Source of the DNA: Streptomyces sp. NBC_00287
Lineage (GTDB): Bacteria > Actinomycetota > Actinomycetes > Streptomycetales > Streptomycetaceae
Direction: 5' to 3'
Length of the DNA: 64,000 bases
Assembly (NCBI RefSeq): GCF_036173105.1
Contig: NZ_CP108053.1
Span: 4,154,001 to 4,218,000 of the forward strand
Below, in pieces: positions 1-52,000 of the stretch; position 1 is the stretch's first letter; each line of letters begins with the position of its first letter. The notes beneath the pieces were generated by a model, which worked only from the letters and a program-made list of their open reading frames with translations, was not told the DNA's origin and did not search any database. Made by a program: the position numbers and the translations under genes.

Positions 1-397
1 GGCTGTGCGCCATGACGTCGAGGGTCATCTCCAGCTGGCGCGTGCTGATCTGCTTGTCCCAGCCGGGTCGCGGCGTGAACGGCACGAGGGTGCCGAACGC
101 CAGCGAGTGCACCAGGATCCGGATGCCGCCTGTCGCCCCCGTCAACTCAGCCAGCTGCGGCACGAGTTCGGCGCGGGTGCTCTTGGCGGCGGCGTTGGAG
201 TTGAAGAAGTGCGCCTCGACGCCGAGCCCGCGGATCTCCTCGACGAGGTCCTCGACCTCCTGGGCACGGGAGGCGGTGTCGAAGTGCACACCGGCGATGT
301 TCACCCCTTCCCGGGCAAGACCCAGGGCGATCGCCCGCCCGATCCCGCTGGACGCCCCGAGAACCAGGCACCAGCTCCCTTCGAGTGACTTCAGCAT
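1..397 (-). CDS. SDR-family oxidoreductase, enoyl-reductase-like (3' end outside window)
   Basis: Only the N-terminal 132 residues are inside the window. They open with a Rossmann NAD(P)-binding motif, GASSGIG, about ten residues in, typical of short-chain dehydrogenase/reductases. The later stretch VHSLAFG sits where classical SDRs have NNAG and resembles enoyl-ACP reductases of the FabI/FabL kind. A role as ketoreductase or enoyl reductase acting on ACP-bound chains in this PKS operon is therefore inferred, but which of the two cannot be decided from the visible part. Its ATG (395-397) overlaps the end of the upstream ketosynthase-like gene, so it is the ninth coupled gene of the operon. 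Confidence 0.8.
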   Translation of the reverse strand, partial: MLKSLEGSWCLVLGASSGIGRAIALGLAREGVNIAGVHFDTASRAQEVEDLVEEIRGLGVEAHFFNSNAAAKSTRAELVPQLAELTGATGGIRILVHSLAFGTLVPFTPRPGWDKQISTRQLEMTLDVMAHS

Positions 398-1434
398 GCG
401 AGGACTCCTGTGGACGAAAGGGCGTTGACGGAAGGGGCGACCCGGACCAGACCGACGTGCCCGTCCCCGCGAGCGGCGACGACGAGCCCACCGGCTCCGA
501 GGGCATGGGCGACGGCGAGAGCGGGGGTCAGACAGCCGACGGAGGCGGCGGCGGTGCCGGGGGGCGAGCCGAGAGCCGCGGCGACCGTCTGCGCGACTGC
601 CGAGCCGTCGAGGTCGAGATGTACGGCGGGGGCGGCGCCCTCCAGGCCACCGGCCAGGCCACCGGTCAGGTCGGCAAGCGCGGCCCCCAGGCGGCGCGCG
701 GCGCGTTCCCGGCCCGCCCTCTCCCGCAGGGAGTTCGGCGCGAGGAACAGCGACCGGGCCCGTACCGTGCCGTGGACGCGTGCTCCGCGTGCCCGGGCCG
801 CGGCCGGCGGCTCCAGGGCGAACACCACGGCGCCCTGCTGCCCGCCCCCGCCGCGCCCGGCGGGCACCGGCTCCTCGACCGCCGCGAGGACGAGCGAGTC
901 GCACCGCCCCGCGGCCAGCGCCAGCGCACCGGCGGACAGCGCGTCCGCGGCGGCCGTGCCCGGGGTGGCGACGGTCAGTGCGAAGCCTTTCAGCTCCAGT
1001 TCGGCGGCGAGCCGGTTGCCGAGCACATTCACGGCGAAGTAGGGGGCGGTCGCCGGGGACAACGCCCCCGCGCCCTCCTCGGCCACCGTCGCGTCCATGG
1101 CGTCGAACAGCCCCGCGAGCCCGGCTCCGGTCGCGAGCACCAGCCCACGCCGGTCGGCCGGCACCGCGTCGGGCCGCCCACCGTCGGCAACCGCGGCCCG
1201 CGCCGCGGCCAGGACGTACTGCGCAGCCGGCGGCAGGTACTTGTAGCCCCGCGCCCCGAGCCGCACCCGGTGGTCGAACCACCCCTCGCCGCCCGGCCGA
1301 CCCGCACCGCCCGCCGCCAGGACGTCCCCGGCCGAGTCCCCCCAGGGAGACACGACCCCGACGCCGGTCACGGCAAGCTCACTCCGCACCAACTCCCGTA
1401 CGGGCGCAGCCGTTTCAGGCAGCATCACGCTCAT
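391..1434 (-). CDS. Ketosynthase-like protein without active-site Cys (chain-length-factor-like)
   Basis: About 347 residues with a beta-ketoacyl synthase N-terminal fold (LAVTGVGVVSPWG near the start). The position of the nucleophilic Cys reads TPGTAAADALS, with no Cys, and no HGTGT or KxxxGH motif is present, so it cannot condense by itself. It directly follows a complete ketosynthase, the arrangement of KS/CLF heterodimers in type II and highly reducing type II PKSs, so a chain-length-factor role is inferred. It is somewhat short for the family (usually about 400). ATG at 1434 was preferred over GTG at 1437; both overlap the end of the upstream KS gene. Confidence 0.75.
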   Translation of the reverse strand: MSVMLPETAAPVRELVRSELAVTGVGVVSPWGDSAGDVLAAGGAGRPGGEGWFDHRVRLGARGYKYLPPAAQYVLAAARAAVADGGRPDAVPADRRGLVLATGAGLAGLFDAMDATVAEEGAGALSPATAPYFAVNVLGNRLAAELELKGFALTVATPGTAAADALSAGALALAAGRCDSLVLAAVEEPVPAGRGGGGQQGAVVFALEPPAAARARGARVHGTVRARSLFLAPNSLRERAGRERAARRLGAALADLTGGLAGGLEGAAPAVHLDLDGSAVAQTVAAALGSPPGTAAASVGCLTPALAVAHALGAGGLVVAARGDGHVGLVRVAPSVNALSSTGVLAC

Positions 1435-2593
1435 CACCCGCCACCCCCTCCAGCACCACCGACGCGTTGTTCCCGCCGAAGCCGTACGCGTTGACCAGCA
1501 CCCGCCGTGCCTGCGCCGCCAGCGGCAGCGGTGCCCCCTGCGGCAGCAGGACCTCGCACTCGGGGTCCTGGTCGCTCAGCGGCACGTTCGGCGGGATCTC
1601 GCCGTGCCGCAGGATCAGCGCCGCCGCCACCGCACCGAGCGCGGCGGACGCCCCGCCCGCGTGCCCGAGCAGCGCCTTCAGGCTGTACAGCGGCACCCGC
1701 GAGGCGCCGGCCCCGAGCACCCGGTGCAGCGCCCGGCTCTCCAGCACGTCGTTGAGCCGGGTCCCGGTCCCGTGCGGCACCACACACCCCACGGACTCCG
1801 GCACCGGACCCACGGCCTGCCGCATCGCCCGTACGATCTGCTCGCCGTCCGCCCCGGGCGCCGTCGGATGATCGGCGTCGCAGCTCCACGCCACGGCACC
1901 GAGCCGCACCGCACCGGACGCGGCCCCGCGCAGCCGCGCATGCTCGGCCGACTCCACGACCAGCACACCCGCGCCCTCCGCGAACACCGTCCCGGCCCGG
2001 TCCCGTTCAAAGGGCCGGCACCGCTCGGCGTCCACCGCGCCGAGCCGGTTGAAGCACCCGAGCGCGACCCGCGAGTACGCGTCGGAACCCCCGGCGATCA
2101 CCACATCCGCCTCGCCGGCCCGCACCAGATCGGCCGCGACGCCCAGCGCGTAGGCACCGGCGGCGCAGGCGTTGCCCAGGTCGTGGACGGTGCCGTAGAC
2201 CCCGAGTTCGGCGGCGAGCGCCGCGGCGAGCCGGAACGGCGGCGCCCAGCCGCCCTCCGGCCCCCGCCCGCGCTCGTTGCCGCCCGGCTCGCCCATGCAG
2301 CTGCCGAGCACCACGGCCGTACGGCCGTCGGCGAGCGCGTCCGCGTCGAGGCCCGCGTCGGCCAGGGCCTCCCGGGCGGCGAGCGAGGCGAACCGGGTGG
2401 CCCGCTCGGCGGTGAGGTCGGGGTCCGGCACCAGGCTGATCAGCGGCAGCTCCATCCGGGCGAGCGGGTCGGCCGGCCGGTCGGGCCGGCGGACGCCGGC
2501 CGCTCGCATGGCGCCCCACAGTGTGTCGGCGCCCGCACCGTGGCAGGTGACCGCACCGATCCCGGTGACCAGGACCTCGACCTCGGACTTCAT
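1415..2593 (-). CDS. Beta-ketoacyl synthase (complete catalytic triad)
   Basis: 392-residue KAS-type ketosynthase performing decarboxylative Claisen condensation on ACP-bound chains. The nucleophile is Cys143 in GNACAAGAYALG. The two His motifs are present as PHGTGTRLND and SLKALLGHAGG, and the C-terminal NAYGFGGNN is typical of the family. The real start is the ATG at 2593, whose ATGA overlaps the stop of the hotdog gene; a longer in-frame opening upstream lies over that gene and is not real. It is followed by a Cys-less partner (391-1434), so the two probably form a KS/CLF heterodimer. Confidence 0.9.
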   Translation of the reverse strand: MKSEVEVLVTGIGAVTCHGAGADTLWGAMRAAGVRRPDRPADPLARMELPLISLVPDPDLTAERATRFASLAAREALADAGLDADALADGRTAVVLGSCMGEPGGNERGRGPEGGWAPPFRLAAALAAELGVYGTVHDLGNACAAGAYALGVAADLVRAGEADVVIAGGSDAYSRVALGCFNRLGAVDAERCRPFERDRAGTVFAEGAGVLVVESAEHARLRGAASGAVRLGAVAWSCDADHPTAPGADGEQIVRAMRQAVGPVPESVGCVVPHGTGTRLNDVLESRALHRVLGAGASRVPLYSLKALLGHAGGASAALGAVAAALILRHGEIPPNVPLSDQDPECEVLLPQGAPLPLAAQARRVLVNAYGFGGNNASVVLEGVAGDERDAA

Positions 2594-3564
2594 GCCGTCC
2601 GGCCCTCCAGGGCGGCGTTCATCCGGTCGTCGAAGGCCACCAGGCTCCAGTCGCGACGGTTCTCGATCACCGCGTACCCGTGGGTGATCCGGCCGGTCGC
2701 GGTCTGCACGAGCTCGCCGTCGCGCACGACGTAGGTGTCCATACGGGAGTCGTAGGTGAAGCCCTTGAAGACGTTCTCGACGGTGAGGACGATGTACAGG
2801 TCCTCCTCCATCCGCGCCTCGTCGAGGACCGTGATGCGCGAGTGCGGCACGACCGGGATCCAGTTCTGCTCGTCGAGCAGCGTCTTGATGGACACCCCGC
2901 GGTCGGCGACGAGCCGGTCCTTGGCCTCCTCCATCAGCCGCAGATAGCCCGACATCTGCTGGCGCTCGGTGAAGTGGCAGTACCAGTAGGGGATACGGAA
3001 CTTCCAGGCGTACGCGTTGCGCCCGGCCGTCAGCTCCTTGACCAGGTCGTCCGCGGCGAGGTCGGCCTCGACGGGCTCGGGGGTCCAGCCGGGCTTGGCG
3101 GACAGCTTGTCGACGGCGTACGGCGCGAGCGGCGCCGGCACCGGCAGCTCGCCGCCACCGCGCGGGTCGAGGCGCAGCTGGACGCGGACGGTGGAGGTGA
3201 CCGCCTTGAGCAGGGTCTCGCGCTGCACATACAGGGTCACGGCGAGCACCAGCTCGTCGGCCTTGGCCTTGCGGTGCGGCTTGACCTCGGCGACCGCGGT
3301 GTCGTCGATGTGGAAGGCGTGCAGGATGCGGGTGTCGATGTCGACGATGTCCGTGCACAGCCCGTAGACCTCGTAGATCGTGCCCGGGGCGAGTCCGGCC
3401 TGGCGCAGATGGTTCAGTACGGCTTCCTCGACGAGGTAGTTGACGTGCTTGAAGCCGATCCAGGTGCAGATGTTGGAGCCCTCGTAACGGGGCCGGATCT
3501 CCAGGGAACTGGGCTCCTGGAGGGCGAGGACCGCGGCCTCGATGTCAGCGGTGTTCGTGGTCAC
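2590..3564 (-). CDS. Double-hotdog protein, probable 3-hydroxyacyl-ACP dehydratase or thioesterase
   Basis: 324 residues with GTG start one base after the preceding gene's stop and an ATGA overlap with the next KS. Two halves each look hotdog-like: an N-terminal half with KHVNYLVEEAVLNHLRQ followed by beta strands, and a C-terminal half with VVPHSRITVLDEARMEEDLY and a strand-rich end. I do not recognise a named family with certainty. Highly reducing type II PKS clusters carry thioesterase-fold dehydratases that generate the double bonds, and this operon has no other dehydratase in view, so that role is the best inference. An acyl-CoA/ACP thioesterase is the alternative. Confidence 0.65.
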   Translation of the reverse strand: MTTNTADIEAAVLALQEPSSLEIRPRYEGSNICTWIGFKHVNYLVEEAVLNHLRQAGLAPGTIYEVYGLCTDIVDIDTRILHAFHIDDTAVAEVKPHRKAKADELVLAVTLYVQRETLLKAVTSTVRVQLRLDPRGGGELPVPAPLAPYAVDKLSAKPGWTPEPVEADLAADDLVKELTAGRNAYAWKFRIPYWYCHFTERQQMSGYLRLMEEAKDRLVADRGVSIKTLLDEQNWIPVVPHSRITVLDEARMEEDLYIVLTVENVFKGFTYDSRMDTYVVRDGELVQTATGRITHGYAVIENRRDWSLVAFDDRMNAALEGRTA

Positions 3565-3565
3565 G

Positions 3566-4750
3566 TCAACTCCGGTGCGTAGGGATGGTCAGGAGGGAAA
3601 GGTCGGAAGAGGTACAGCGGTCCTTGTCGGTGTCGGTGTCGACCTCGGGAACGGCGTCCCGGATCAACTCCCGGACGGCGCCCGCGAACCGGTCGGGCTG
3701 CTCCGCCATGGCGAAGTGCCCGCAGTCGTCGAACAGTTCGAGCCGCCCGTCGGGCAGCGCGGCGGCCAGCGCGGCCGCGTCGCCCGGCGGAGCAGCGAAG
3801 TCCTCGGCCCCGGCGACGACGAGCACCGGCATGCGCAGGGCGTCGACATCCAGGAAGGGGCTGCGCAGATAGGCGCCGAAGAACTGCTGCCAGCCGTACG
3901 GCCCGATCCGGTCCCGCACCCGCAGAGCCATCGCGGCCCGCAGTTGCGGCGACAGCCGGTCCCCCGCGCTGATCCGCAGCCCCTCTTCGAGGATGCGGTG
4001 AAAGCCATTGAGGTAGTACGCGGCGTCGTCCCAGCTGAACTCGCCGGGACCACGCCGGTGGAAGGGCGCCACGGCCACGATCCCGCGGGGCCGCACGTCC
4101 CGCCGTACGACGGCCTCCAGCGCGGGCCCGACGGTGAACGAGTGCGCGACGAGCACGTCGACGCCTCCGGGCACCGCGTCGAGCGCGTCCGCCACATGCT
4201 CGGCGGGATCACCGAAGAGACTCCAGTCAGGATCCCCGTCGGCCCCCCAGGGCAGGGCCCCGTCCCACAACTCGACGCACCCCGGCGCAAGTTCCTCGTA
4301 CGCCCGCCACACGGCCGTACTCCCGGCGAGCCCATGCAGCACAAGCACCCGCACGGCAGTCCCCGCCTCCCGGGAACCCCGCCGCAACCGCACGACAGCT
4401 TCCCGCCGCCCACCGAGCCCAAGCCCGGCACGCGGGGCGCGGTCCTGGGCGGGGCCGCCCGATGCGACAGCCTGCGCGACGGGCTCGTCCGCCGTGGCGT
4501 ACTCGCCCGCGCCAGGCGCGAACCCACCAGCCCGCTCCCCGCGTGCACCGCTCCGCATGGGGCGCGCAACCTGCTCAGAACGCCGCGCGCTCGCACCACG
4601 CGCCCCAGAGCCGTCAGCTCGCCCTTCACCCGCGCCGGTCACGCCCCGAACAGGGCGCGCAACCCAGTCCGCGAGCTCCGCGTTCGCGCCGCGCACGCCG
4701 GAGCTGTCATCGTGCACTCCGCCCGCGCCCGGCATGCCCTGCGCGCTCAT
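3566..4750 (-). CDS. Alpha/beta hydrolase with long disordered N-terminus
   Basis: The C-terminal 262 residues form an alpha/beta hydrolase: oxyanion region VLHGLAG, nucleophile elbow AHSFTVG, acid in AGAEDFAAP and catalytic His in DCGHFAM. The elbow departs from the usual GxSxG. In a PKS operon it could release or proofread acyl chains. The preceding roughly 130 residues are Gly/Ala/Arg-rich and unlike any domain. ATG 4750 was chosen because its ATGA overlaps the stop of the previous gene, as elsewhere in the operon. A GTG at 4354 preceded by a GGGAGG-type ribosome site would give a normal-length enzyme and is a real alternative. Confidence 0.75.
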   Translation of the reverse strand: MSAQGMPGAGGVHDDSSGVRGANAELADWVARPVRGVTGAGEGRADGSGARGASARRSEQVARPMRSGARGERAGGFAPGAGEYATADEPVAQAVASGGPAQDRAPRAGLGLGGRREAVVRLRRGSREAGTAVRVLVLHGLAGSTAVWRAYEELAPGCVELWDGALPWGADGDPDWSLFGDPAEHVADALDAVPGGVDVLVAHSFTVGPALEAVVRRDVRPRGIVAVAPFHRRGPGEFSWDDAAYYLNGFHRILEEGLRISAGDRLSPQLRAAMALRVRDRIGPYGWQQFFGAYLRSPFLDVDALRMPVLVVAGAEDFAAPPGDAAALAAALPDGRLELFDDCGHFAMAEQPDRFAGAVRELIRDAVPEVDTDTDKDRCTSSDLSLLTIPTHRS

Positions 4751-5796
4751 GCCGCACTACCCGCCACCGCGAGCGCCTCCGGCGCAGTCAGCAGCAGTGC
4801 CGCGCCCGCGTCGTCGCCGCCGGCGTCACCCGTACCGGCGCTGACGAGGACCATGTCGTCGTGGTCCGCGAGCCATACGGCGGCCGTCGCGCACTGCAGC
4901 ACACCCAGCGCCCCGGACGACGGGCCGTACAGCGCGGAGAGGTCGTGAACCGGGGCCGAACCGGCGGACGCCCCGAGCGCGGGCGCGGGGGCGCGCACTC
5001 CGGCGGGATGCTCCGGTACGCACCACAGCCCCACCGGCCCGGGCCGCAGCGCCCGTACCTTCGCGACGGCGCCGGCGTGATCGCCCCGGCGCGCGTAGGG
5101 CCCGAGCGCCGCCAGCGCACGCACCCCGCGCGCCTCGGCCGACGCGAGCGACTCGACGACCAGCGCGACCGCCCCGTCGAAGAGCTCCGGCACCGCGTCC
5201 GTGTCGTCGGTGCCGTCCGGCTCCGGTGTCTCCGTGACATGCCGCACGGCCGCGTTGTCCGGCTCGACCCCGACGACGAGCACCCGTTCCACCCGCCTGG
5301 CGGCGACCAGCAGCCGGGCCCAGTTGACGGCGTCGAGCCCGGAGGCCGGCCCGTTGCACAGTGTCAGGTTGGCGCCGCGCAGCCCGTGCGTGATGGCCAC
5401 CCAGGAGGCGACCACATTGCTGGAGGTGGCCGGCAGCATCATCGGGCTGGTCCCCAGATACGTCGACTCGGCGATCGTCTGCACGGTCTCGCAGACGGTG
5501 TCGCAGTTGCCGTAGTTGGTACTGGCGACCACCCCGACACTCTCGCCCGGCACCGTCAACTCCCCGGCCCCGTCGAGCAGTCCGGCCGCGTCCAGCGCGT
5601 CCCGCGCCGCGGTCATGGCGAGTTTGGTGGCCCGGTCCTTGTAGCGCAGCCCGCGCCCGGTGAGCCGGGAGACGGGATCGGCCGCCGACCGATGGCCCGC
5701 GGGCAGCGGCCCGAGCAGTCCGCCCGGCCCGTCGAGACCTCGTACCGCCGTACCGAGCCCGGTGATCACGGCCTGCGCCGTGGTTGCGGCACTCAA
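4747..5796 (-). CDS. Ketosynthase-like protein, nucleophile replaced (chain-length-factor-like)
   Basis: 349 residues, thiolase/KAS fold with VITGLGTAVRGLD at the N-terminus. The active-site segment reads LTLCNGPASGLDAV: compared with the usual DTACSSSL the catalytic Cys position is Pro, and the HGTGT and GH motifs are absent. It follows a complete KS, so it is probably that enzyme's non-catalytic partner. The start is a TTG at 5796 whose TTGA overlaps the upstream stop; this rare start is supported by the coupling and by the conserved N-terminal strand beginning right after it. The longer in-frame reading upstream overlaps the KS gene and is rejected. Confidence 0.75.
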   Translation of the reverse strand: MSAATTAQAVITGLGTAVRGLDGPGGLLGPLPAGHRSAADPVSRLTGRGLRYKDRATKLAMTAARDALDAAGLLDGAGELTVPGESVGVVASTNYGNCDTVCETVQTIAESTYLGTSPMMLPATSSNVVASWVAITHGLRGANLTLCNGPASGLDAVNWARLLVAARRVERVLVVGVEPDNAAVRHVTETPEPDGTDDTDAVPELFDGAVALVVESLASAEARGVRALAALGPYARRGDHAGAVAKVRALRPGPVGLWCVPEHPAGVRAPAPALGASAGSAPVHDLSALYGPSSGALGVLQCATAAVWLADHDDMVLVSAGTGDAGGDDAGAALLLTAPEALAVAGSAA

Positions 5797-6971
5797 CTCC
5801 CCGCTCCTTCCCCTGCGGACTCCCGCACGGCCTCCACGACGGCGACCGCATTGAGCCCGCCGAAGCCGAACGAGTCGATCTGCGCGATCCGCAACGGCCC
5901 GTCCGCCCGCTCGGCGGCCCCGCGCACCAGCCGGAACCCGGCCACGGCCTCCACGGGATCGTCCAGATACACGGTCGGCGGCACGGTCCCGCAGCGCATG
6001 ACGTCCACCGCAGCGACCAGACTGTGCAGCCCGGACGCCCCCGCGGTGTGCCCGGTCATCGACTTGATCGCCGTCATGTACGGCGAGGGTTCGACCCCCG
6101 CGAACACCGCACCGAGCGCCGTCGATTCGGCCTCGTCGTTCAGCGGCGTACCGGTGCCGTGCAGCATCACGAGGTCGATGTCGGCCGGCCGTACGCCCGC
6201 CCTCTCGTGCGCCTCGCGCACGGCGGCGGTGATGTTCTTCGCGTCCGGCGCGGAGGGGTGATGGGCGTCGCAGTTGACGGCGACACCCCGCACGCGCGCG
6301 TGCACCCGCCCCGCCGCCCCGGGCCCGTCGCTCTCCCGTCTGAGCACCACGGCCACCGCGCCCTCGCCCTGGAGCATCCCGCGCCGGGCCCGGTCGAAGG
6401 GCCGTACCCGGTCGGGCGCTTCGGGATAGCAGCGGTCCAGCAGCCCGTACGTGCTCTCGCTGATGGTGTCGACCCCGGCGACGACGACGGTGTCCGCCGC
6501 CCCCAGTTCCAGCAGATCGGTGCCGAGCGCCAGCGTGTACAGCGAGGCCGAGCAGGCGTTGGCCACGGTGTGCGTGTCCGCGGCCCCGAACCGGCGTCGC
6601 AGCATGGTGCCGAAGTGCAGATCGGCCGCGTCGAAGGGCACCTTGTCCCGCCAGGACAGCTCCACCGAGCGCAGCTCGCGCAAGGTGGTGCCGACCAGCA
6701 CCGGCACCCCGGACAGATCGTCCCCGAGCCCGGCGTCCGCCGCGGCCGCCGCCACGGCCTGCTCCAGCCAACGGGTCGCCCGCAGCGGCACATCCACGCC
6801 CGGCGCGGGCCGGTCGTCGATCTCGTACGCCACCTGCGCCCGGAACTTCTCCCGGTCGTACCCGCGCAACGGACCGAGCCCGCTGCGCCCGGCGACCAGC
6901 GAATCGAAGATCTCGTCGACGCTGTCGCCGATGCTGGCGACGGCGCCCATCCCGGTCACGATCCAGCTCAT
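5793..6971 (-). CDS. Beta-ketoacyl synthase (complete catalytic triad)
   Basis: 392-residue KAS. Cys140 in VANACSASLY is the nucleophile; His motifs are LHGTGTPLND and IKSMTGHTAGASG; the C-terminal DSFGFGGLNA is conserved. The ATG at 6971 overlaps the stop of the upstream KS as ATGA. Together with the Cys-less neighbour at 4747-5796 it looks like a KS/CLF pair. This is the second of three intact ketosynthases in one operon, which suggests different chain lengths or an initiation enzyme separate from the elongating pairs. Confidence 0.9.
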   Translation of the reverse strand: MSWIVTGMGAVASIGDSVDEIFDSLVAGRSGLGPLRGYDREKFRAQVAYEIDDRPAPGVDVPLRATRWLEQAVAAAAADAGLGDDLSGVPVLVGTTLRELRSVELSWRDKVPFDAADLHFGTMLRRRFGAADTHTVANACSASLYTLALGTDLLELGAADTVVVAGVDTISESTYGLLDRCYPEAPDRVRPFDRARRGMLQGEGAVAVVLRRESDGPGAAGRVHARVRGVAVNCDAHHPSAPDAKNITAAVREAHERAGVRPADIDLVMLHGTGTPLNDEAESTALGAVFAGVEPSPYMTAIKSMTGHTAGASGLHSLVAAVDVMRCGTVPPTVYLDDPVEAVAGFRLVRGAAERADGPLRIAQIDSFGFGGLNAVAVVEAVRESAGEGAGS

Positions 6972-8218
6972 GCCGCACTCACCGCTTCGCCCCGGTAGGC
7001 CCCGAGGATCAGCACGGCGTTGTTGCCGCCGAAGGCGAGCGCGTTGTTCTGTACGACGTTCAGCTCCGCCTCGACCGCCTCGTTGGGCACGCAGTCCACC
7101 CCGCACTCGGGGTCGGTCTCCCGGTGGTTGACCGTCGGCGGGATGAATCCCTCGGTGAGCGCGAGCGCGCAGGCCGCCGCGGCGACCGCGCTGGCGGCGC
7201 CCATGCTGTGGCCGATCATCGACTTGATGGAGACGGTGCGCGGCATGGCGTCCGCGCCGAACACCTGGCGGATGGCGCCGGCCTCGGTGATGTCGTTGGC
7301 CTTCGTCCCGGTGCCGTGCGCGGAGACGAAGTCGACCTGATCCGGCGTCACCCCCGCGTTGCGGTGCGCGATGCGGATCGTGCGGGCGATGCTGTCCTGG
7401 TCCGGGGCGACGGGATGCAGGGCGTCGCAGGCGAGGCCGTACCCCAGCACCTCGGCGTAGATGCGCGCGCCGCGGGCGAGTGCCGACTCCAGGCTCTCCA
7501 TGAGGAGGATGCCCGCGCCCTCGCCGGTGAGGATGCCCTCGCGGTCCTTGTCGAAGGGCCGGCACACCTCGGGGGCGATGGTGCCGAGCCGGTAGAAGCC
7601 GGTGAAGGTCTTGCGGCAGGCCGCGTCGGCGCCCCCGCACAGGGCGACGTCCACGTCCCCGCTGCGGATGGCGTCGTAGCCGTAGCCGACAGCGTAGTTG
7701 CCCGCCGCGCAGGCGGTCGGAATGGTGACGGCCTCGACGTCCTCCAGTTCCAGCTCCCGCACGATTCCGGCGGACAGCCGTCCCGCGGGGATGCGCCGGG
7801 CGACGGTCGGCTCGTACTCCTCGGGCCCGCTGTCCAGGCTCGCGGCGACGAGCTGGTCGAGGTCGCGGGACTCGCCGTCCGTGGTGCCGACGGACACCAG
7901 GGAACGGCGGGCCCGTACGTCCGCGACGCTCAGACCCGCGTCCTCGACCGCCATCCTGGCGGCCGCCACCGAGAACTGGCTCGCCCGGCCCAGCTCCTCG
8001 GGAGACTGCCGGGTGACCCACTGCTCCGGCTCGAAGTCGGTGACCTCGCAGCCGTTGGCGTGGGCGAAGCCGGTCGTGTCGAACGCGGTGATCGGCTTGA
8101 CGCCGCTGCGTCCCGCCCGGAGGCCGGCGGTGAAGGCCTCCACACCGATGCCGATGCTGGTGACCACGCCGAGTCCGGTGATGACCACCCGGCGCCCTGT
8201 GTTGCTCGAAGCGTTCAT
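6968..8218 (-). CDS. Beta-ketoacyl synthase, FabF/KAS II type
   Basis: 416 residues, full-length KAS II-like enzyme: RRVVITGLGVVTSIG start, nucleophile Cys170 in IPTACAAGNYA, His in AHGTGTKAND and IKSMIGHSMGAAS, and LAFGGNNA near the end. It is the first ketosynthase after the ACP (34-nt gap) and has no adjacent Cys-less partner of its own. It may start the chain or act alone as a homodimer. A GGGTGAG ribosome site lies just upstream of the ATG. Confidence 0.92.
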   Translation of the reverse strand: MNASSNTGRRVVITGLGVVTSIGIGVEAFTAGLRAGRSGVKPITAFDTTGFAHANGCEVTDFEPEQWVTRQSPEELGRASQFSVAAARMAVEDAGLSVADVRARRSLVSVGTTDGESRDLDQLVAASLDSGPEEYEPTVARRIPAGRLSAGIVRELELEDVEAVTIPTACAAGNYAVGYGYDAIRSGDVDVALCGGADAACRKTFTGFYRLGTIAPEVCRPFDKDREGILTGEGAGILLMESLESALARGARIYAEVLGYGLACDALHPVAPDQDSIARTIRIAHRNAGVTPDQVDFVSAHGTGTKANDITEAGAIRQVFGADAMPRTVSIKSMIGHSMGAASAVAAAACALALTEGFIPPTVNHRETDPECGVDCVPNEAVEAELNVVQNNALAFGGNNAVLILGAYRGEAVSAA

Positions 8219-8252: not shown

Positions 8253-8522
8253 TCAGTTCTGGGCGGCCTCGGCGACCACGATGTAGACGCCCTCGAGGTT
8301 GACCATGCGGCTGAGCTCGGCCTGGTCGATGGTGACCTTCTGGGTGCGCTCCAGCGCGGCGAGGATCTCGATGGCACGCAGCGAGTCCGCGTCGTGCTCC
8401 TCCTTGAAGAGGCTGGTCTCGGTGACCTCGTCCTCATCGATCTCAAGGATGTCGCAGACGATCTCCTTGATCTCCTGCTTGCGGGCCTCGTCCAGAACGG
8501 TCGTCACGTTCGCGTTGGGCAT
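8253..8522 (-). CDS. Acyl carrier protein
   Basis: 89-residue carrier protein that would hold the growing chain on phosphopantetheine. The attachment site is Ser47 in DADSLRAIEI, flanked by acidic helices (DILEIDEDEV), as in discrete type II ACPs. The ATG at 8522 has a GGAG ribosome site seven bases upstream; the longer in-frame start at 8579 has none and is rejected. It is the first gene of the PKS operon, and the only carrier protein in view, so all the ketosynthases here are expected to work on it. Confidence 0.92.
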   Translation of the reverse strand: MPNANVTTVLDEARKQEIKEIVCDILEIDEDEVTETSLFKEEHDADSLRAIEILAALERTQKVTIDQAELSRMVNLEGVYIVVAEAAQN

Positions 8523-8606
8523 CTCGACTCCAATGAGGGATCGGTATCGGAGTCCGGGTCCGGTGACTCGGTCCTCCATGCGTTGATCCGAGAGTGGAAT
8601 CGACCG

Positions 8607-8624
8607 CTATACGAGGCCTATACG
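8607..8624 (-). promoter_or_regulatory. Direct repeat CGTATAG-N4-CGTATAG upstream of the PKS operon
   Basis: Read on the minus strand the sequence is CGTATAG GCCT CGTATAG, an 11-bp period, preceded by C. It lies 84 bp before the ACP start in an otherwise GC-rich leader. The same arrangement occurs at 47715-47732 before the NRPS operon. It may be an activator site (heptads with 11-bp period are the hallmark of SARP-type regulators) or two overlapping -10-like elements. Confidence 0.6.
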
Positions 8625-8664: not shown

Positions 8665-9723
8665 CTACACAGCCGTACTGCTGCTCTCCGGCTCCGCGCC
8701 CTCCAGCCAGCCGAGCTGCGCGGCCCGCAGCCCCGCCTGGAAGCGGCTGCGGGCGCCGAGCCGTCCCATTAGCTCGGCGGTGATACGCCGGCCTGTGCGC
8801 ACCGAGACGCCGAGCTTGCGGGCCACCACCTCATCGGTGAGCCCTTCACCGAGCAACCGCAGCACGGCCTGCTCCTGACCGGACAGCTCCTCGCCACCAC
8901 GGTCGCGCGGTTGCGGCCGCCCTCCGCTGAAGGGCAGCGCGTTCTCCCACACCCGCTCGAAGAGCTCGTTCAGGATCGTGATGATCCCCTGCCCGTGCAG
9001 CACGAGCGCCCCCGCCGCCGACGCGTCGGGATCGATGGGCAGCACCGCGCGCGTGCGGTCGAACACCAGCATCCGCGACGGCAACGACGCCGTCGTCCGC
9101 ACCTGGTCACCGTGCGCGTGCAGCCAGCGCAGATGCTCGACCGTCGCGGGGTCGTTGTACACGCTGTCCAGGTAAATGCTGCGCATCACCACGCCCCGCT
9201 TGGCGAGCTTCTCGCACAACGGCCGGCTCGCCTCCCGGCTGGCCTCTGTCTGTGGCCCACCTGTGGCAAAAGCGAGAAGCTCCTTTTCGCATTCCTGGGT
9301 GAATTCCTCGATGCGGGTTCGGATCTCGTCGATTCCGATGAGCCGCTCGATGACGGTGTTGCGCTGCCGTTGCTGGGCCGCGGTGTACTCGTCGATGAAC
9401 CGGGCCACTTCGATACGCGCCTCAGCTATCCGCTTCTGCCGTTCCAGGAATTCGTTCTCCTGGCGGGTGAGAAGTGCCTGCAGGCCGACCTCGGGGCTCA
9501 CGACGCGCAATTCGCCGGGTGCGTCCCAGGACGGCTTGATGAGCGCGAGTCGTACACATTCGTCAAGGGCCGATCTGACCAGCTCGGGCTGCCAGCCCAG
9601 GCTCGCCACCAGATCGTCAAGGCTGAAATCCGGCCTCTTCAGCATGGCCCGGTAGACCTCGGCCGCATGGGCCCCCAACCCCAGCGGTTCCAGCACGCGC
9701 GCCCCCTCGCCTCCGTGATGCAC
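8665..9723 (-). CDS. TrmB-like/LuxR-type transcriptional regulator
   Basis: 352 residues. The N-terminal 70 resemble a TrmB-type winged helix (AEVYRAMLKRPDFSLDDL), followed by a coiled-coil-like helix rich in Glu/Arg (residues about 85-140) and a middle domain of the kind found in Streptomyces cluster-linked regulators. The C-terminus is a LuxR-type helix-turn-helix (LSGQEQAVLRLLGEG, then KLGVSVRTGRRITAELMGRLGA). The start is GTG 9723. It lies directly upstream of the PKS operon on the same strand and downstream of a small exported peptide gene, so control of the PKS operon, possibly in response to the peptide, is inferred. No in-frame TTA codon was seen. Confidence 0.85.
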   Translation of the reverse strand: MHHGGEGARVLEPLGLGAHAAEVYRAMLKRPDFSLDDLVASLGWQPELVRSALDECVRLALIKPSWDAPGELRVVSPEVGLQALLTRQENEFLERQKRIAEARIEVARFIDEYTAAQQRQRNTVIERLIGIDEIRTRIEEFTQECEKELLAFATGGPQTEASREASRPLCEKLAKRGVVMRSIYLDSVYNDPATVEHLRWLHAHGDQVRTTASLPSRMLVFDRTRAVLPIDPDASAAGALVLHGQGIITILNELFERVWENALPFSGGRPQPRDRGGEELSGQEQAVLRLLGEGLTDEVVARKLGVSVRTGRRITAELMGRLGARSRFQAGLRAAQLGWLEGAEPESSSTAV

Positions 9724-46136: not shown

Positions 46137-47693
46137 ATGCCCGCACAGATCACGACCGCCGTCCCTCCTGCCGAGGCGGTCGCGCCCTTGATCCGGGGGG
46201 TCGCCGTACTGCGGGAGCTGACGGAGGCGGGCGGGACGATGAGCCCGAGCGGTCTGGAGCGCGCCACGGGCCTCGCCCGCTCGACGGTCGACCGCATCAC
46301 CTCCACCCTCGCCCGCATGGGGTACGTCCGTCTCGACGGCCGGGACGCGGTCCTGACCCCCCGTCTGATGGAACTGGGCAACGCCTATCTGGCGGCCCTG
46401 GGGCTGCCCTCGCTGTTGCGCGGGCACGCGGACGCGCTGGCCGACGAACTGGACGAGTCGGTCTCCCTGGCGGTGCCCGACGGCGACGGCATCCGCTTCA
46501 TCCACCAGGCCACCCGCCGCCGGGCGATGTCCCTCAGCTTCCGCATCGGCGACCTGCTCCCGGCCGAACGCACCGCGCCGGGACCGCTGTTCGCCCTGGA
46601 GTGGACGCAGGAGGAGTGGCGTTCGTGGCGCGACCGCAGGGCGCGGGATCCGCAGGACGGGGCCTTCTCGGCCGTACCGCCGAGGGAACGGCCGGACGGG
46701 GACGAGGAGTTCACGGAGCGGGTGGCGCGGGCGCGGGAGGACGGCTGGGCGCTGGACGACCAGTTGATCGAGCCGGGGCTGGTGGCGCTGTCGGTGCCCG
46801 TACGGGAGCCCGGCACGCACCGGATCGCCTGTGTGGCCAGCGTGGTGAGCCACACGAGCCGCCACACGGCGACGGACTTGCGTGAGGCGCTGCTGCCGAG
46901 GCTGCGGCGGGCGGTGGCGACGATGGAGCGGGAGCTGAGAAGGGCACCCGCCGTGGAACCGGCCGCGCCGCCCTCCGCCCTGGCGGCCTGGACGGGCGGG
47001 TCGAAGCAGGAACTGGGCCGGGACTTCGTGGAGTCGCTGGCCCGGGGTCTTACGGTGCTGACGGCGTTCGGCGAGGGCAGGGCCCGCCTGACGCTGACGG
47101 AGGTGGCCCAGGCGACGGGACTGGCACGGGCGACGGCACGGCGAGCGCTGATCACGTACGAGTACCTGGGCCTGGTGACCCGCCCGGACGAGCGCACGTA
47201 CGCCTTGACGTCCCGGGTCCTGTCCCTGGGCTTCCCCCCGCTGTCCCGGACGACACTCCCCCGCCTGGCGACTCCCCACCTGGCGGACCTGACCGCCCGG
47301 ATCCAGGAGTCGACGTCGCTGGCCGTACTGACCCCGGACGGTTCGGAGATCCACCGCACGGCCGGGATCGCCGCGCACCGCGTCATGAGCGTGCACGTCC
47401 AGGCGGGCACCCGCCTGCCCGCGCGGGAGACGGCGCAGGGCCGCGTCCTGCTGGAGGACTTGGGGCACGTCCTCGTCGACGACGAACAGGAACGCGGGCT
47501 GCGCGCCCTCGCGGTCCCCGTCCACGACCGTGCGGGCCGGGCGGTTGCCGCGGCGGGCGTGGCGATGCACGCGGCCCGCCACACCCCGGAGGACTGCGAG
47601 CAGCGCATCCTCCCGGCCCTGCGGGCCACGGCGGACGCCATCGCGACGGACCTCCGCGCGGCGTCCCGCTTCACCCACGTGCCCCTGTCCTGA
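46137..47693 (+). CDS. Tandem-duplicated IclR-family regulator
   Basis: 518 residues, twice the normal IclR length. Each half has its own DNA-binding part (first: GLERATGLARSTVDRITSTLARMGYV; second: LTEVAQATGLARATARRALITYEYLGLV) and a ligand domain. The two helix-turn-helix units lie about 270 residues apart. Fusions of this kind occur in Streptomyces and presumably act as one intramolecular dimer. It stands directly upstream of the NRPS operon, so control of that operon is possible. Beta-ketoadipate-type regulators are the closest named group. Confidence 0.85.
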   Translation: MPAQITTAVPPAEAVAPLIRGVAVLRELTEAGGTMSPSGLERATGLARSTVDRITSTLARMGYVRLDGRDAVLTPRLMELGNAYLAALGLPSLLRGHADALADELDESVSLAVPDGDGIRFIHQATRRRAMSLSFRIGDLLPAERTAPGPLFALEWTQEEWRSWRDRRARDPQDGAFSAVPPRERPDGDEEFTERVARAREDGWALDDQLIEPGLVALSVPVREPGTHRIACVASVVSHTSRHTATDLREALLPRLRRAVATMERELRRAPAVEPAAPPSALAAWTGGSKQELGRDFVESLARGLTVLTAFGEGRARLTLTEVAQATGLARATARRALITYEYLGLVTRPDERTYALTSRVLSLGFPPLSRTTLPRLATPHLADLTARIQESTSLAVLTPDGSEIHRTAGIAAHRVMSVHVQAGTRLPARETAQGRVLLEDLGHVLVDDEQERGLRALAVPVHDRAGRAVAAAGVAMHAARHTPEDCEQRILPALRATADAIATDLRAASRFTHVPLS

Positions 47694-47714: not shown

Positions 47715-47732
47715 CGTATAGATCGCGTATAG
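47715..47732 (+). promoter_or_regulatory. Direct repeat CGTATAG-N4-CGTATAG upstream of the NRPS operon
   Basis: CGTATAG ATCG CGTATAG, 11-bp period, preceded by C, ending 22 bp before the MFS start. The spacing, the extra C and the orientation toward the gene equal those of the element at 8607-8624. Since no ribosome site precedes the MFS ATG, the leader must be short. An activator site or twin -10-like elements are both possible. Confidence 0.6.
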
Positions 47733-47754
47733 GCGCCGATCTCACCGTCGCCCC

Positions 47755-49035
47755 ATGACCGCGATCGAAACGACCGGTCCGACGCCTCTGCGGCGGAACC
47801 GGGACTTCCTGCTGCTGTGGTCCGGTGCCGCCGTGTCCTTTCTGGGCACCAGGGTCGCGGGGGTCTCGTATCCGCTGATCGTGCTCTGGCACACCGATTC
47901 GCCGCTGGTGATGTCGGCGGTGTCGTTCGCGGCGCTGCTGCCGCTGCTGCTGGTGCAGTTGCCCGCCGGTGTCCTCGTCGACCGCTGGGACCGGCGACGG
48001 CTGATGATGGTCTGCGAGGGCGCACGGGCCGTGGCGCTCGGCAGCGTCGTCGTCACCCTCGCCGCCGGGCACTTCTCCGCGGTCCAGCTGGCCACCGTAG
48101 CGTTCCTGGAGACCAGCCTCGCCATCCTGTACCGGCTCGCCGAGCGCGGAGCCGTACGCAATGTCGTCGACGCGGGCCAACTGGCGGCGGCCCTCTCGCA
48201 GAACGAGGCGCGCGGGCGCGCGGCCGTGCTGCTCGGCCAGCCCGGCGGCGTCCTGCTGCAGAGCGCGGCGCGCTGGGCGCCCTTTCTCTTCTCGGCGCTG
48301 GCCGGGCTCGCCTCGCTCGGCAGCCTGCTGCTGATCCGCAAGGAGTTCCAGCAGCGCCGCAAGGGGCCGCAGAAGTCGCTGCGCACCGAACTCGTGGAGG
48401 GACTGCGCTGGTTGGCGCGGCAGCGGTTCCTGCGCACGGCGCTCGCCTTCGTCGCCGGCAGCAATCTGCTCCTGCAGATCCTGCCGCTCGCGCTCTTCGT
48501 GCTCGTCAAGGAGGAGGGGCGAGCGCAGAGTGCGGTCGCCGTCATCGTGGCCGCGGGCGGAATCGGCGGCATCGTCGGGGCGCTGAGCGGCAATTGGTGG
48601 CAGCGCAGGATCAGCCTCCGTACGGTCCTGGTCGGCGGGCTGTTCGGCTGGGCGGCCCTGATCACCGCCATGGCCCTCGCCCGGGAGCCGGTCGTACTCG
48701 GCGTGCTGTTCGCCGGGACGGGATACATCACCGGCGTCTTCAATGTCGCCGCCGCCGTCTACCAGGTCCGCACCACCCCGGACGCCCTCCAGGGCCGGGT
48801 CGCGGGCACCTCGCATCTCATCGCCACCGGAGCCAATGTGCTCGGCGTCCTGCTCGGGGGTCTTGCCCTCTCCTCCTTCGGCACGGGCCTCGTCTTCCTG
48901 CTGATCGGCGGCGCCGTGGCGGCACTGGCCACGGCGGCGACGACCACCCCGGCGCTGCGGGACGAACACGCCGCCACGACCGAGAAGTCCACCGAGACAA
49001 GGGAGACCGATCATGGGCACGAGCGCACACGGTGA
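47755..49035 (+). CDS. MFS exporter of the NRPS operon
   Basis: 426 residues, about twelve membrane segments, of the EntS-like group (RNRDFLLLWSGAAVSFLGTRV, GVLVDRWDRRRLMMV). Its 3' end overlaps the NRPS start by 23 bp, so the two are one transcript and it probably exports the peptide or a precursor. ATG 47755 has no clear ribosome site, which suggests a leaderless or very short leader message. Confidence 0.88.
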   Translation: MTAIETTGPTPLRRNRDFLLLWSGAAVSFLGTRVAGVSYPLIVLWHTDSPLVMSAVSFAALLPLLLVQLPAGVLVDRWDRRRLMMVCEGARAVALGSVVVTLAAGHFSAVQLATVAFLETSLAILYRLAERGAVRNVVDAGQLAAALSQNEARGRAAVLLGQPGGVLLQSAARWAPFLFSALAGLASLGSLLLIRKEFQQRRKGPQKSLRTELVEGLRWLARQRFLRTALAFVAGSNLLLQILPLALFVLVKEEGRAQSAVAVIVAAGGIGGIVGALSGNWWQRRISLRTVLVGGLFGWAALITAMALAREPVVLGVLFAGTGYITGVFNVAAAVYQVRTTPDALQGRVAGTSHLIATGANVLGVLLGGLALSSFGTGLVFLLIGGAVAALATAATTTPALRDEHAATTEKSTETRETDHGHERTR

Positions 49036-52000
49036 CCGGGACGCCCTCCGCGCCGAACTGCTCAGGCGCAGGCTCGCGGGAAAGGGCCGCGGCCACCGGC
49101 GCAGGGACCCGGTGCGCGCCGACCGCAACGGTCCGCTGCGGCTGTCCCACGGCCAGCAGCAGATGTGGTTCCTGAACCGTCTTGAACCCGGCAGCCCCGA
49201 GTATCTGGTCCCGCTGGCCCTGCGGCTGCGGGGCCCTCTCGACGTCCCGGCCCTGGCGCGGGCCTGGGACCGCTTCCTCGCGCGGCACGAGATCCTGCGC
49301 ACCCGGTACACCTGGCAGGACTCGGAGCCCCTCCAGGTCATCGACCCCGTGCGCCCGGTGGAGCTTCCTGTCGAGGACATCTCCCAACTCCCGGATGCCG
49401 AAAGGGAGTCGGCGGTTCTGGAGCGCATCGCTCGGGCCTCCAAGCGACCCCTGGACCTGGAGCGGGAGTGGCCGGTGCGCGGACAGCTGCTGCGCTGCTC
49501 GGCCGACGAGCACATCCTGATCGTGGTCGTGCACCACATCGCCTGCGACGCCTGGTCGACGCACCTGTTCGCCGAGGACATCAGCGCGCTGTACGAGGCC
49601 GGTCCCGGAGAGGGCCCGGAGCCGCTCGGCTTCCAATACGCGGACTACGCGGCCTGGGAGCGCGAGCAGCTCACGGGCGAGACCGGACAGCGCAGTCTCG
49701 CCTACTGGCGACGGCAGCTGGCCGGCCTGACCCCGCTCGCCCTCCCGACGGACCGGCCACGCCCCGCCGTGCGCGATCCCCGGGGCGACTCGGTCGTCCG
49801 CGCGCTGCCGGCCGAACTCGCCGACGCCGTACGGGATCTGGCCAAGCGCCATGACACGACACCGTTCACCGTGCTGCTCACCGCCTTCCAGGTCCTGCTG
49901 GCCCGGTACACCGGCGAGGACGACATCGCCGTCGGCACCCTGCTCTCGACCCGGAACCGCCCGGAGTGGCAGCGCCTGTTCGGCTACGGCATCACCAGCC
50001 TCGTCCTGCGCGGCCGCCTCGACGGTGATCCGGCCTTCGACGAGCTGCTGTCCGCCACCCGCGGCACGGTGCTCGACGCCTTCGAGCACCAGGAGGTGTC
50101 GTTCCGCCACCTGGTCACGGAACTCGAACCGGAACGCGACCGGTCGCGCACCCCGCTCTTCCAGGTGCTGTTCACCCTGCGCGAGGAGACGGTCGACGAC
50201 TACCGGCTGCCGGGCGTCTTCATGACCCGTATCCCGCCCGCCGACCCCCCGGCCCGGTTCGACCTCTCCCTGGTGATGAACGAGGGCCGGGACGGAGCGC
50301 TGTCCGCACAACTGGAGTTCGCGACAGCCCTGTTCGACCGTACGACGGCCGAACGGATGCTGAGCCATTTCGTCCGTCTCCTCACCGCCGCCACCGCCCG
50401 GCCGGAGACCCCGATCTCCCGTCTGGAGATCCTCACCGAGCAGGAGCGCACGGCGCTGCTGGAGGCCGCGGGACCACGCGGCGGGCGTCCCGTCACCCGG
50501 CGGGTCCATGAGCTGTTCGAGGAGCAGGTGAGACGTACGCCGGATGCCGCGGCGGTCTCGTACGGCGGGCAAACGCTGTCGTACGGGGAGCTCAACGCCC
50601 GTGCCAACCGCATCGCCCATCTGCTGCGCGCGAAGGGTGTGGGCCCGGAGGACCTGGTCGGGCTTTGTCTGGAGCGGGGCATCGAGCTGATGCCCGCGCT
50701 GCTGGGTGTGCTCAAGTCCGGCGCCGCCTATGTCCCACTGGATCCGGCGAACCCGCCCGAGCGGCTGGCCTACATCGCGGCGGATACGGCGGCCCCGGTG
50801 GTGCTGAGCACTTCGGCGCAGTCTCTGGAGGGCCTGTACGACGGTGAACTCGTCCTTCTGGACCGGGACGCGGAGCTGATCGCCGCCCAGCCCGACACCG
50901 ATCCGGCCGTGGAGGGCAGCCCGCAGAACCTGATCTACACGATCTACACGTCCGGCTCGACCGGGAAGCCCAAGGGCGTCGCGCTCACCCACGCCAACGT
51001 GGTGCGGCTGCTGGAGGAAGCGCGGCAGCATCTCGCGTACGGCGAGAGCGATGTGTGGTCGCTGTTCCACTCGTACGCCTTCGATGTGTCGGTCTTCGAG
51101 ATGTGGGGTGCGCTGCTGCACGGCGGTCGGCTGGTCGTGGTGCCGGCCGAGGTCACGCGCTCGCCGGAGGAGTTCCTGGACCTGCTGGTGGCTCAGGAGG
51201 TGACCGTCCTCAGCCAGACGCCGTCCGCGTTCCGCGGTCTGGCGGTGGCTGCGGGAGAGCGTGAACTCGCCGTACGGGCCGTGGTGTTCGCGGGCGAGCG
51301 ACTCGACGTCCACGAGCTGAGGCCGTGGACCGAACGGCGGGGCCTGGACCGGGTCGCCCTGGTGAACATGTACGGGATCACCGAGACCACCGTCCACACC
51401 ACCTACCACCGGCTGACCGAGCGGGACCTGGAGGCCGGAGCGGGCAGTGTCATCGGCCGCCCGCTGGATGACCTCTCCGTCCATCTGCTGGACCGCGAGG
51501 GCTGGTTGGTGCCGGTCGGGGTGCCGGGCGAGATCCATGTCGGCGGCCCGGGTGTGGCCCGCGGCTATCTGAACCGCCCCGAGCTGACCGCCGAGCGTTT
51601 TGTGCCGGACCCGTTCGGCCCCGCGGGCTCCCGGCTGTACCGGAGCGGTGACCTGGCCCAGCGGCTCCCGGACGGGCGGCTCGAGTTCCTCGGCCGGATC
51701 GACGACCAGGTGAAGATCCGTGGCTTCCGCGTCGAGCTCGGCGAGATCGAGAGCGCGCTGGCCACCCATCCGGCGCTGCGCGACGCCGTCGTCCTCGTCC
51801 GCGACGAACAGCTGGTGGCGTACGTCCTGCCGATGGAGCACGCGCCGAGTCCGGCCGAGCTGCGGGCCCACCTGGCGACCTCGCTGCCCGAGTACATGGT
51901 CCCCGCGGCCTTCGTCGCCCTCGACCGGCTCCCGCTGACCACCAACGGCAAGCTCGACAAGCGCGCCCTGCCCGCACCCGGCCGGGACGCGCTGGCCGGG

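Follow-up and report, generated by a model that had tools for sequence, protein, structure and literature searches.

Genes and repeats at the locus

The window, a 64,000-nucleotide stretch of Streptomyces sp. NBC_00287 (genome positions 4154001-4218000; window coordinates count from 1), comes from a genome represented by a single contig of 9,642,853 bases (9.64 Mb). It contains two copies of an 18-mer box, CGTATAG-N4-CGTATAG, and two related copies lie outside, to its left. We refer to the four as sites A, B, C, and D (Table 1). Gene calls were our own, domains were assigned with Pfam and NCBIfam, and operon limits were inferred from strand and spacing.

Table 1. Boxes, promoter elements, and genes of the cluster and of operon D. 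Positions are those of the window unless marked as genome positions.
Feature	Position	Strand	Remarks
SARP gene	genome 4111626-4113485	+	left edge of cluster, about 42 kb left of window
Main terminal NRPS	genome 4123435-4134612; L018:1435-12612	-	left of window
Site A	genome 4140925-4140942	-	52 bases before SbnB homolog; 26.4 bits
Site B	genome 4149207-4149224	-	77 bases before AMP-ligase/acyl-CoA dehydrogenase fusion; 19.9 bits
Discrete ketosynthase-type genes, alpha/beta hydrolase, one protein without Pfam match	391..8218	-	same-strand genes run on left of window
ACP, first gene of ketosynthase (type II PKS-like) operon	8253..8522	-	PF00550
-10-like hexamer of site C, CACTCT	8591..8596	-	10 bp downstream of second heptad; register kept in relatives
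Site C	8607..8624	-	CGTATAGGCCTCGTATAG; two CGTATAG heptads, 11-bp period, 84 bases before ACP start codon; 26.3 bits
LuxR-type regulator	8665..9723	-	GerE C-terminus by Pfam; in many, not all, motif-bearing clusters
Double IclR-type regulator (PcaR/PobR-like), two fused units	46137..47693	+	directly upstream of operon D; conserved in G128
Site D	47715..47732	+	CGTATAGATCGCGTATAG; two CGTATAG heptads, 11-bp period, 22 bases before MFS start codon; 20.0 bits
-10-like hexamer of site D, CACCGT	47743..47748	+	ends 7 bases before A of MFS ATG
MFS transporter (operon D)	47755..49035	+	61% identical to the cluster's other MFS, genome 4121251-4122450
NRPS (C-A-T)x3 with terminal beta-lactamase/PBP-type domain (operon D)	49013..59698	+	paralog of the cluster's terminal NRPS
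Stand-alone beta-lactamase/PBP-like protein (operon D)	59691..60707	+	

Behind site A, the SbnB homolog is followed on the same strand by two NRPS genes, one of A-T-C-A-T architecture and one of (C-A-T)x3 architecture that ends in a PBP-type domain. Site C faces the ACP gene (start 8522), which is followed by discrete ketosynthases. Site D faces the MFS gene (start 47755), behind which come a second (C-A-T)x3-PBP NRPS gene and the stand-alone PBP-like gene. A single cluster comprises sites A, B, and C; its left end, where the SARP gene is located, is about 36-42 kb left of the window. Site D is found 39 kb to the right of C, beyond genes for MoeA, a penicillin-acylase-like protein, and an antiporter. 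The combination of SbnA/SbnB (2,3-diaminopropionate [Dap]), ornithine carbamoyltransferase, TauD-type dioxygenases (in strain NBC_01244), and ketosynthases suggests an acylated, Dap-containing peptide, and literature searches identified no known compound matching the cluster. The ornithine carbamoyltransferase homolog is encoded inside the NRPS operon (L012:8474-9397, minus strand), where it could possibly supply citrulline or carbamoyl-Dap or provide self-resistance.

An earlier note, made from the sequence alone, had drawn attention to the pair of 18-mers in the window, and both occur exactly as described (8607-8624, minus strand; 47715-47732, plus strand), including the extra leading base (ACCGTATAG at the left edge of C and D alike) and the orientation toward the gene. 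They are the only exact matches to CGTATAG-N4-CGTATAG in the 9.64-Mb genome, so the motif is not spread over many unrelated promoters, as the genome-wide search proposed in the note might have revealed. When up to three mismatches were allowed, the window held five matches to the 18-mer, a count reached in 0 of 100 dinucleotide shuffles (mean, 0.54). The single heptad CGTATAG has four copies in the window, all within C and D (2 of 100 shuffles reach four), and the three exact copies of TATAG-N6-TATAG in the genome are all in this region. With up to two mismatches, the genome yielded 11 matches versus 13 for a reversed-pattern control, so loose matches elsewhere look like chance. Four of these 11 (C and D, which are exact, together with A and B) sit within 61 kb. 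The signal is thus made up of exact and near-exact matches and their position, not of an abundance of loose matches. A full-text literature search for CGTATAG together with Streptomyces had no SARP title among the matches listed.

Predicted promoter geometry of the box

To describe the box we drew on a comparison set of 392 genomes (labeled G, with fetched stretches labeled L), in which many of the aligned sites are orthologous and thus are not independent observations. A first matrix was made from 20 of 30 hits. These were selected visually because a gene followed them, and the downstream hexamers could be seen at the time, so that the choice was not blind. The hexamer ended in T at 20/20 of these sites and had A at its second place at 17/20. 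Ten hits were dropped, four from NBC_00287 (4109399, 4162618, 4167586, and 4203634), four from G389, and one each from G375 and G256; two of them (G375:4279963 and G389:2059325) also show the pattern NANNNT. A second alignment, A1, comprised 25 sites without D over 34 columns, with members chosen for the two-heptad, 11-bp pattern. Its invariant columns are T3, A4, A6, G7, A15, T16, A17, G18, and T34. NANNNT stands at a fixed distance of 10 bp downstream of the 7-bp core in 21 of the 25 sites, and the four exceptions are all versions of site B (NBC_00287, G128, G276, and G378), where T replaces the expected -10 A. A less biased check used ten exact-match loci: all seven near SARP-clade or cluster genes show NANNNT (L179-L182, L184, L187, and L191), as does one of the remaining three, and the exact boxes of G266 and G012 have no in-register -10. 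The other one, G040:7890901 (C1, L193), has an in-register NANNNT (GATCGT) and is far from that genome's SARP cluster. The two heptads differ in their third position, which is T in 23/23 sites upstream but in only 13/23 downstream; position 5 is T in 23/23 for both heptads, with G at a site found later (G211_2).

These features correspond to those of SARP operators. Direct repeats of about 7 bp with a period of 11 or 22 bp are expected of such operators, and the 25 aligned sites and D have them; a 3' repeat about 8 bp from the -10, placing the repeats over the -35, is likewise expected, and the distance from the core here is 10 bp (21/25). Given this constant spacing of 10 bp to NANNNT, the box falls over the -35 region, like the afs box of AfsR. 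If the hexamer is taken as -12 to -7, the heptads would start at -40 and -29, matching the afs box (start points inferred). The earlier proposal of a SARP-type activator site shared by the two operons in the window therefore agrees with what we found: gene-facing heptads with an 11-bp period that, judged by sequence, lie over the -35. For site D, the transcript is predicted to be leaderless, starting at or next to the MFS ATG.

A sequence-only model (R1) was then derived from A1, with D held out and with A, B, and C included by construction; of 2775 first-look candidates, 150 were scored. In the NBC_00287 genome, it returned four matches below an E of 0.01, in the order A, C, D, and B, all within 61 kb and each upstream of a gene or operon. 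The next-best matches reached 12.2, 11.9, and 10.5 bits. Although absent from the model, site D ranked third genome-wide, and as a sequence it is a full member of the box set. Its recovery, together with the rarity of the shared box, supports the note's idea that one regulator may join the two operons.

Candidate regulators of the box

Among 17 BTAD matches in the NBC_00287 genome, the strongest (PF03704; E = 2.3e-48) is the SARP gene at the cluster's far edge. The note had pointed to any nearby SARP; one does exist in the cluster, but it lies about 42 kb left of the window (4111626-4113485) rather than inside it. Its product has the domain order of a SARP, an N-terminal winged-helix DNA-binding domain followed by BTAD, and aligns with the AfsR structures 8k60, 8jke, and 8hvr (E down to 3.4e-94). 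In the motif TYISRLRK (TYASRLRK in AfsR), residues T88, S91, R92, R94, and K95 are identical, with AfsR numbering placed on the alignment, and five of six conserved AfsR contacts (Q48, W74, P79, T88, R94, and K95) are retained. Two DNA-touching positions are altered, Q48 to K and R87 to Y. All 32 aligned members of the SARP clade, the NBC_00287 protein included, have TYxSRLR.

The box recurs in related clusters. G128, S. lacrimifluminis (L020), WAC 04229 (L021, identical in sequence to G276 here), G256, G375, and the NBC_01244 plasmid each have a copy at the junction of the LuxR and ACP genes. Sites also recur before SbnB, AMP-ligase, and ACP genes in other Streptomyces clusters, and several of the relatives with a LuxR-ACP box have counterparts of A and B. 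NBC_01244, whose related cluster is on a 300-kb linear plasmid (NZ_CP108489.1, 179946-260000), has in addition a weak partial match of 13.3 bits before sbnA, and G389 (LuxR, 57%) has weak box candidates only. In G128 and G375, a box (G128:C2:5174338 and G375:C1:4310916) precedes a gene starting ATG/GTG-CCCGAGAAA, which is not behind any box in the NBC_00287 cluster. A SARP-clade gene shares the contig with the cluster, within it or next to it, in NBC_00287, G128, G375, G256, G378, NBC_01244, and G389. G276 and G200 have the gene on a separate contig, together with the cluster's MFS and neighbors; S. lacrimifluminis (G392), which also has BTAD genes, is outside this tally.

The main competitor for the role of binder is the adjoining LuxR-type regulator, for which the box would be the operator through which it activates the four operons. 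This candidate was also named, as TrmB/LuxR, in the earlier note. The LuxR gene directly adjoins site C, the LuxR-ACP junctions with a box encode LuxR proteins 58.7-86% identical to it, and in a cinnamoyl cluster two adjacent LuxR genes reportedly led to activation when overexpressed (PMC9381841). However, G378 has genes g03-g35 of the cluster and a 66% identical SARP and retains sites A, B, and C; LuxR searches gave no match there, whether in 120 kb (E up to 10) or in the whole genome (E of 1e-60). At G378:C1 3640001-3641279 and L159:16821-18545, in a cluster that is otherwise well preserved, there is no LuxR match, and a transposase-like ORF was seen by eye a few kilobases upstream.

We also compared regions that carry one regulator or the other. 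A matrix was trained on 19 sites from LuxR-bearing clusters, with D held out, and used at a threshold of 16 bits. Eleven SARP-bearing regions (560 kb), in which clusters may be incomplete, had no LuxR homolog better than 33% over 70 residues, and 9 of the 11 contained a total of 17 sites of at least 16 bits. The reversed sequence of the same 560 kb had 0 sites, and ten single-base shuffles within 400-base blocks had a mean of 0.3. No site of 16 bits was found in the other two SARP-bearing regions (G364 and G369) or in 188 kb from G291, G142, and G315, which have a 78-82% identical SARP and no cluster. In the stretches fetched from these last three (L139-L149), the SARP gene and two ABC-transporter genes occur together with no biosynthetic cluster. 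Conversely, 24 loci of about 4 kb around 46-53% identical LuxR homologs had 0 sites of 16 bits and one of 14, and S. canus (L022), with a partial LuxR match of 64%, had no box. Boxes in 9 of 11 SARP regions in which no such LuxR homolog was found, and none of 16 bits at the 24 LuxR loci, make the SARP the likely binder of the box, as far as sequence comparison can indicate.

G211, G340, G075, G172, G033, G065, G038, and G311 have boxes and, within the fetched stretch, LuxR at best at 33% over 70 residues, even if G038, G172, and G211 encode LuxR homologs of 42-46% elsewhere in the genome. Head-to-tail heptads with an 11-bp period over the -35 are the pattern of SARPs. Given G378 and the SARP-only regions, where the box does not follow LuxR, we set this candidate aside; that LuxR binds the box is improbable.

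Exact matches to CRTATAG-N4-CRTATAG across the 392 genomes numbered 19, in 13 genomes, of which 16 are in SARP-clade clusters: three in NBC_00287, two each in G128, G276, and G200, and one each in G256, G378, G211, G040, G350, G373, and G332. The assignment of G200 and G276 is based on the genes beside the box, as the SARP is on another contig, and that of G040, G350, G373, and G332 on SARP distance alone (13-54 kb), the last with a 55% identical SARP at 54 kb from the box. The other three exact matches are in G266, G012, and G040 (7890901). The reversed control gave 35 matches (table count) against the 19 real ones, so the case for the box relies on position, context, and conservation, not on abundance.

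The distant NRPS operon and related systems

The operon D NRPS and the cluster's main terminal NRPS share 57.7% identity over 3,171 aligned positions, and they have the same 14-letter N-terminal docking peptide. Near its N terminus, the main terminal NRPS has three versions of a docking-like peptide, two of them ALRAELVGRGGG and one a differing 15-letter form. The note had suggested that the first condensation domain (C1) of the far NRPS may accept an acyl group. This starter role lost ground, since the domain aligns with the first module of the other terminal NRPS and its best PDB matches, Txo1 and Txo2 (E = 9e-90 and 1e-86), were far ahead of the CDA synthetase C domain (E = 4e-9), which we take to be a fatty-acyl starter. 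In sequence terms, the far NRPS probably serves as an alternative enzyme for finishing the chain and not as a starter that accepts an acyl group.

Differences between the two terminal NRPSs appear in their partial A-domain codes, whose columns we assume to map to GrsA positions. The alignment-based codes of the upstream subunit are DAWQFATID and DLPKVAEVG. Those of the main terminal NRPS are DVWNVAMVH, DLPKVAEVG, and DLPKVAEVG, and those of the operon D NRPS are DVFSVAMVH, DLPKVAEVG, and DAWQCATID, so that the first and third codes differ. With the same docking peptide and different codes, the operon D NRPS could be an alternative acceptor of the shared upstream intermediate. We read operon D as a detached terminal half that needs the upstream subunit and is kept in step by the SARP box. 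That it is an interchangeable second half of the assembly line, with both terminal NRPSs taking the shared intermediate and one SARP serving two peptides from two loci, is a more tentative proposal, to which we give slightly less than an even chance.

Between the counterparts of g02 and g03, G128 encodes an NRPS that agrees with operon D in the two codes read, the first and the second, and has a near-identical docking peptide; no box of its own was found. G364 has an MFS-NRPS-PBP set with the codes DVFSVAMVH, DLPKLAEVG, and DAWQFATID, in which the MFS start overlaps the stop of the NRPS gene directly preceding it; a search of the 20 kb fetched, which end short of that gene's start, gave no box. 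G142 has the end of a D-type NRPS and the PBP-like gene (85% and 90%) next to the SARP and its ABC genes. Relatives of the stand-alone PBP-like protein above 60% identity occurred in G142 and G364 only, among 391 other genomes. From the SARP up to the double IclR gene, nearly all genes searched are arranged in G128 as in NBC_00287, but the IclR gene there is not followed by operon D, which was thus either gained in NBC_00287 or lost in G128.

Site D could instead be a chance or relic copy of the box, with operon D controlled by the double IclR regulator and unrelated to the cluster. That gene ends 21 bases before site D, it is present in G128 without operon D, and site D is known from one genome only. 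On the other hand, site D scored 20.0 bits in a model built without it and has a -10 in register, its NRPS has the docking peptide of the cluster's terminal NRPS, NRPSs with matching partial codes are found inside the G128 cluster and behind another NRPS gene in G364, and the D-type fragment of G142 lies beside SARP and ABC genes; we consider a chance or relic site very unlikely. Least probable of all is a plain promoter element, a duplicated -10-like TATAG for a sigma factor with no activator, since, for all the resemblance of TATAG to a -10 and the control-like frequency of loose matches in the genome, only four sites in 9.64 Mb, all in one region, fall below an E of 0.01, both heptads are conserved with their 11-bp period, and a separate NANNNT follows at a fixed 10 bp, which upholds the note's expectation that the motif is no ordinary, widespread -10.

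We consider it highly probable that each box is the operator-promoter of an AfsR-type SARP that activates the four operons together, operon D included. Our support for this SARP-operator reading is lowered slightly by the changes at Q48 and R87 and by the first set of sites, which was not chosen blind. A SARP dimer would bind both CGTATAG heptads, which run head to tail, in adjacent positions on the same face of the helix, at about -40 and -29, where they would stand in for a usable -35 element, and would recruit RNA polymerase to the weak NANNNT -10 located 10 bp downstream. Encoded at the cluster's far edge, the SARP would turn on the SbnB/NRPS operon (A), the AMP-ligase/acyl-CoA dehydrogenase gene (B), the ACP/ketosynthase operon (C), and the MFS-NRPS-PBP operon (D). 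Operon D would be a relocated or acquired paralog of the cluster's terminal NRPS, and through its own box it would still be expressed along with the upstream NRPS subunit that it presumably requires.

As SARP biology, the shared box is nothing unusual; what stands out is the detached NRPS branch. For the SARP clade, the analysis provides a predicted operator, CGTATAG-N4-CGTATAG plus N10-NANNNT, with representatives in about twenty Streptomyces clusters, some of them weaker sites, which could help to retrieve the complete gene sets of such pathways, even where some parts are away from the cluster. Operon D could easily be filed as a separate orphan NRPS, and the box would tie it to the cluster's pathway. 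If the branching is true, a duplicated NRPS half can leave a cluster and yet stay wired to it by a promoter box.

The closest parallel is AfsR at the afs box of the S. coelicolor afsS promoter. In that study (PMC10936776), two 11-bp repeats at -40 to -30 and -29 to -19 lie over a poor -35, with CACTGT as the -10; R92 makes contact with the T in position 3 of the repeat and T88 with the base in position 5, while S91, R87, R94, and K95 touch the DNA backbone. Both of these positions are T in all 23 upstream heptads counted here. The boxes described here are similar in having repeats over a poor -35 and a weak -10 (CACTCT and CACCGT), and the NBC_00287 SARP keeps T88, S91, R92, R94, and K95 of helix 3 as set out there (PMC10936776). 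In contrast to AfsR, the heptad is CGTATAG, Q48 and R87 are replaced by K and Y, the protein has 619 amino acids versus about 990 for the AfsR chain, and the SARP is predicted to serve four operons of one pathway. Operators of the SARP-LAL regulators PimR, SanG, and PolR are likewise heptameric direct repeats with 4-nt spacers, but their heptad is CGGCAAG, and PimR has a single target gene and an operator that does not overlap the -35 (PMC5930380); the box here differs from PimR in both respects. The S. globisporus C-1027 cinnamoyl-type cluster also pairs LuxR regulators of the cluster with type II PKS genes that serve to make a chain-extended acyl group, but the term SARP has 0 occurrences in the accessible text of that paper (PMC9381841), unlike the SARP-linked cluster described here. 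CcaR of S. clavuligerus offers a precedent for joint control, as a single SARP with heptameric repeats activates two biosynthetic gene sets together (PMC6627628). Its two clusters are adjacent and make different products, whereas operon D is 39 kb away, beyond genes with no obvious link to the pathway, and seems to encode an alternative subunit for one and the same assembly line.
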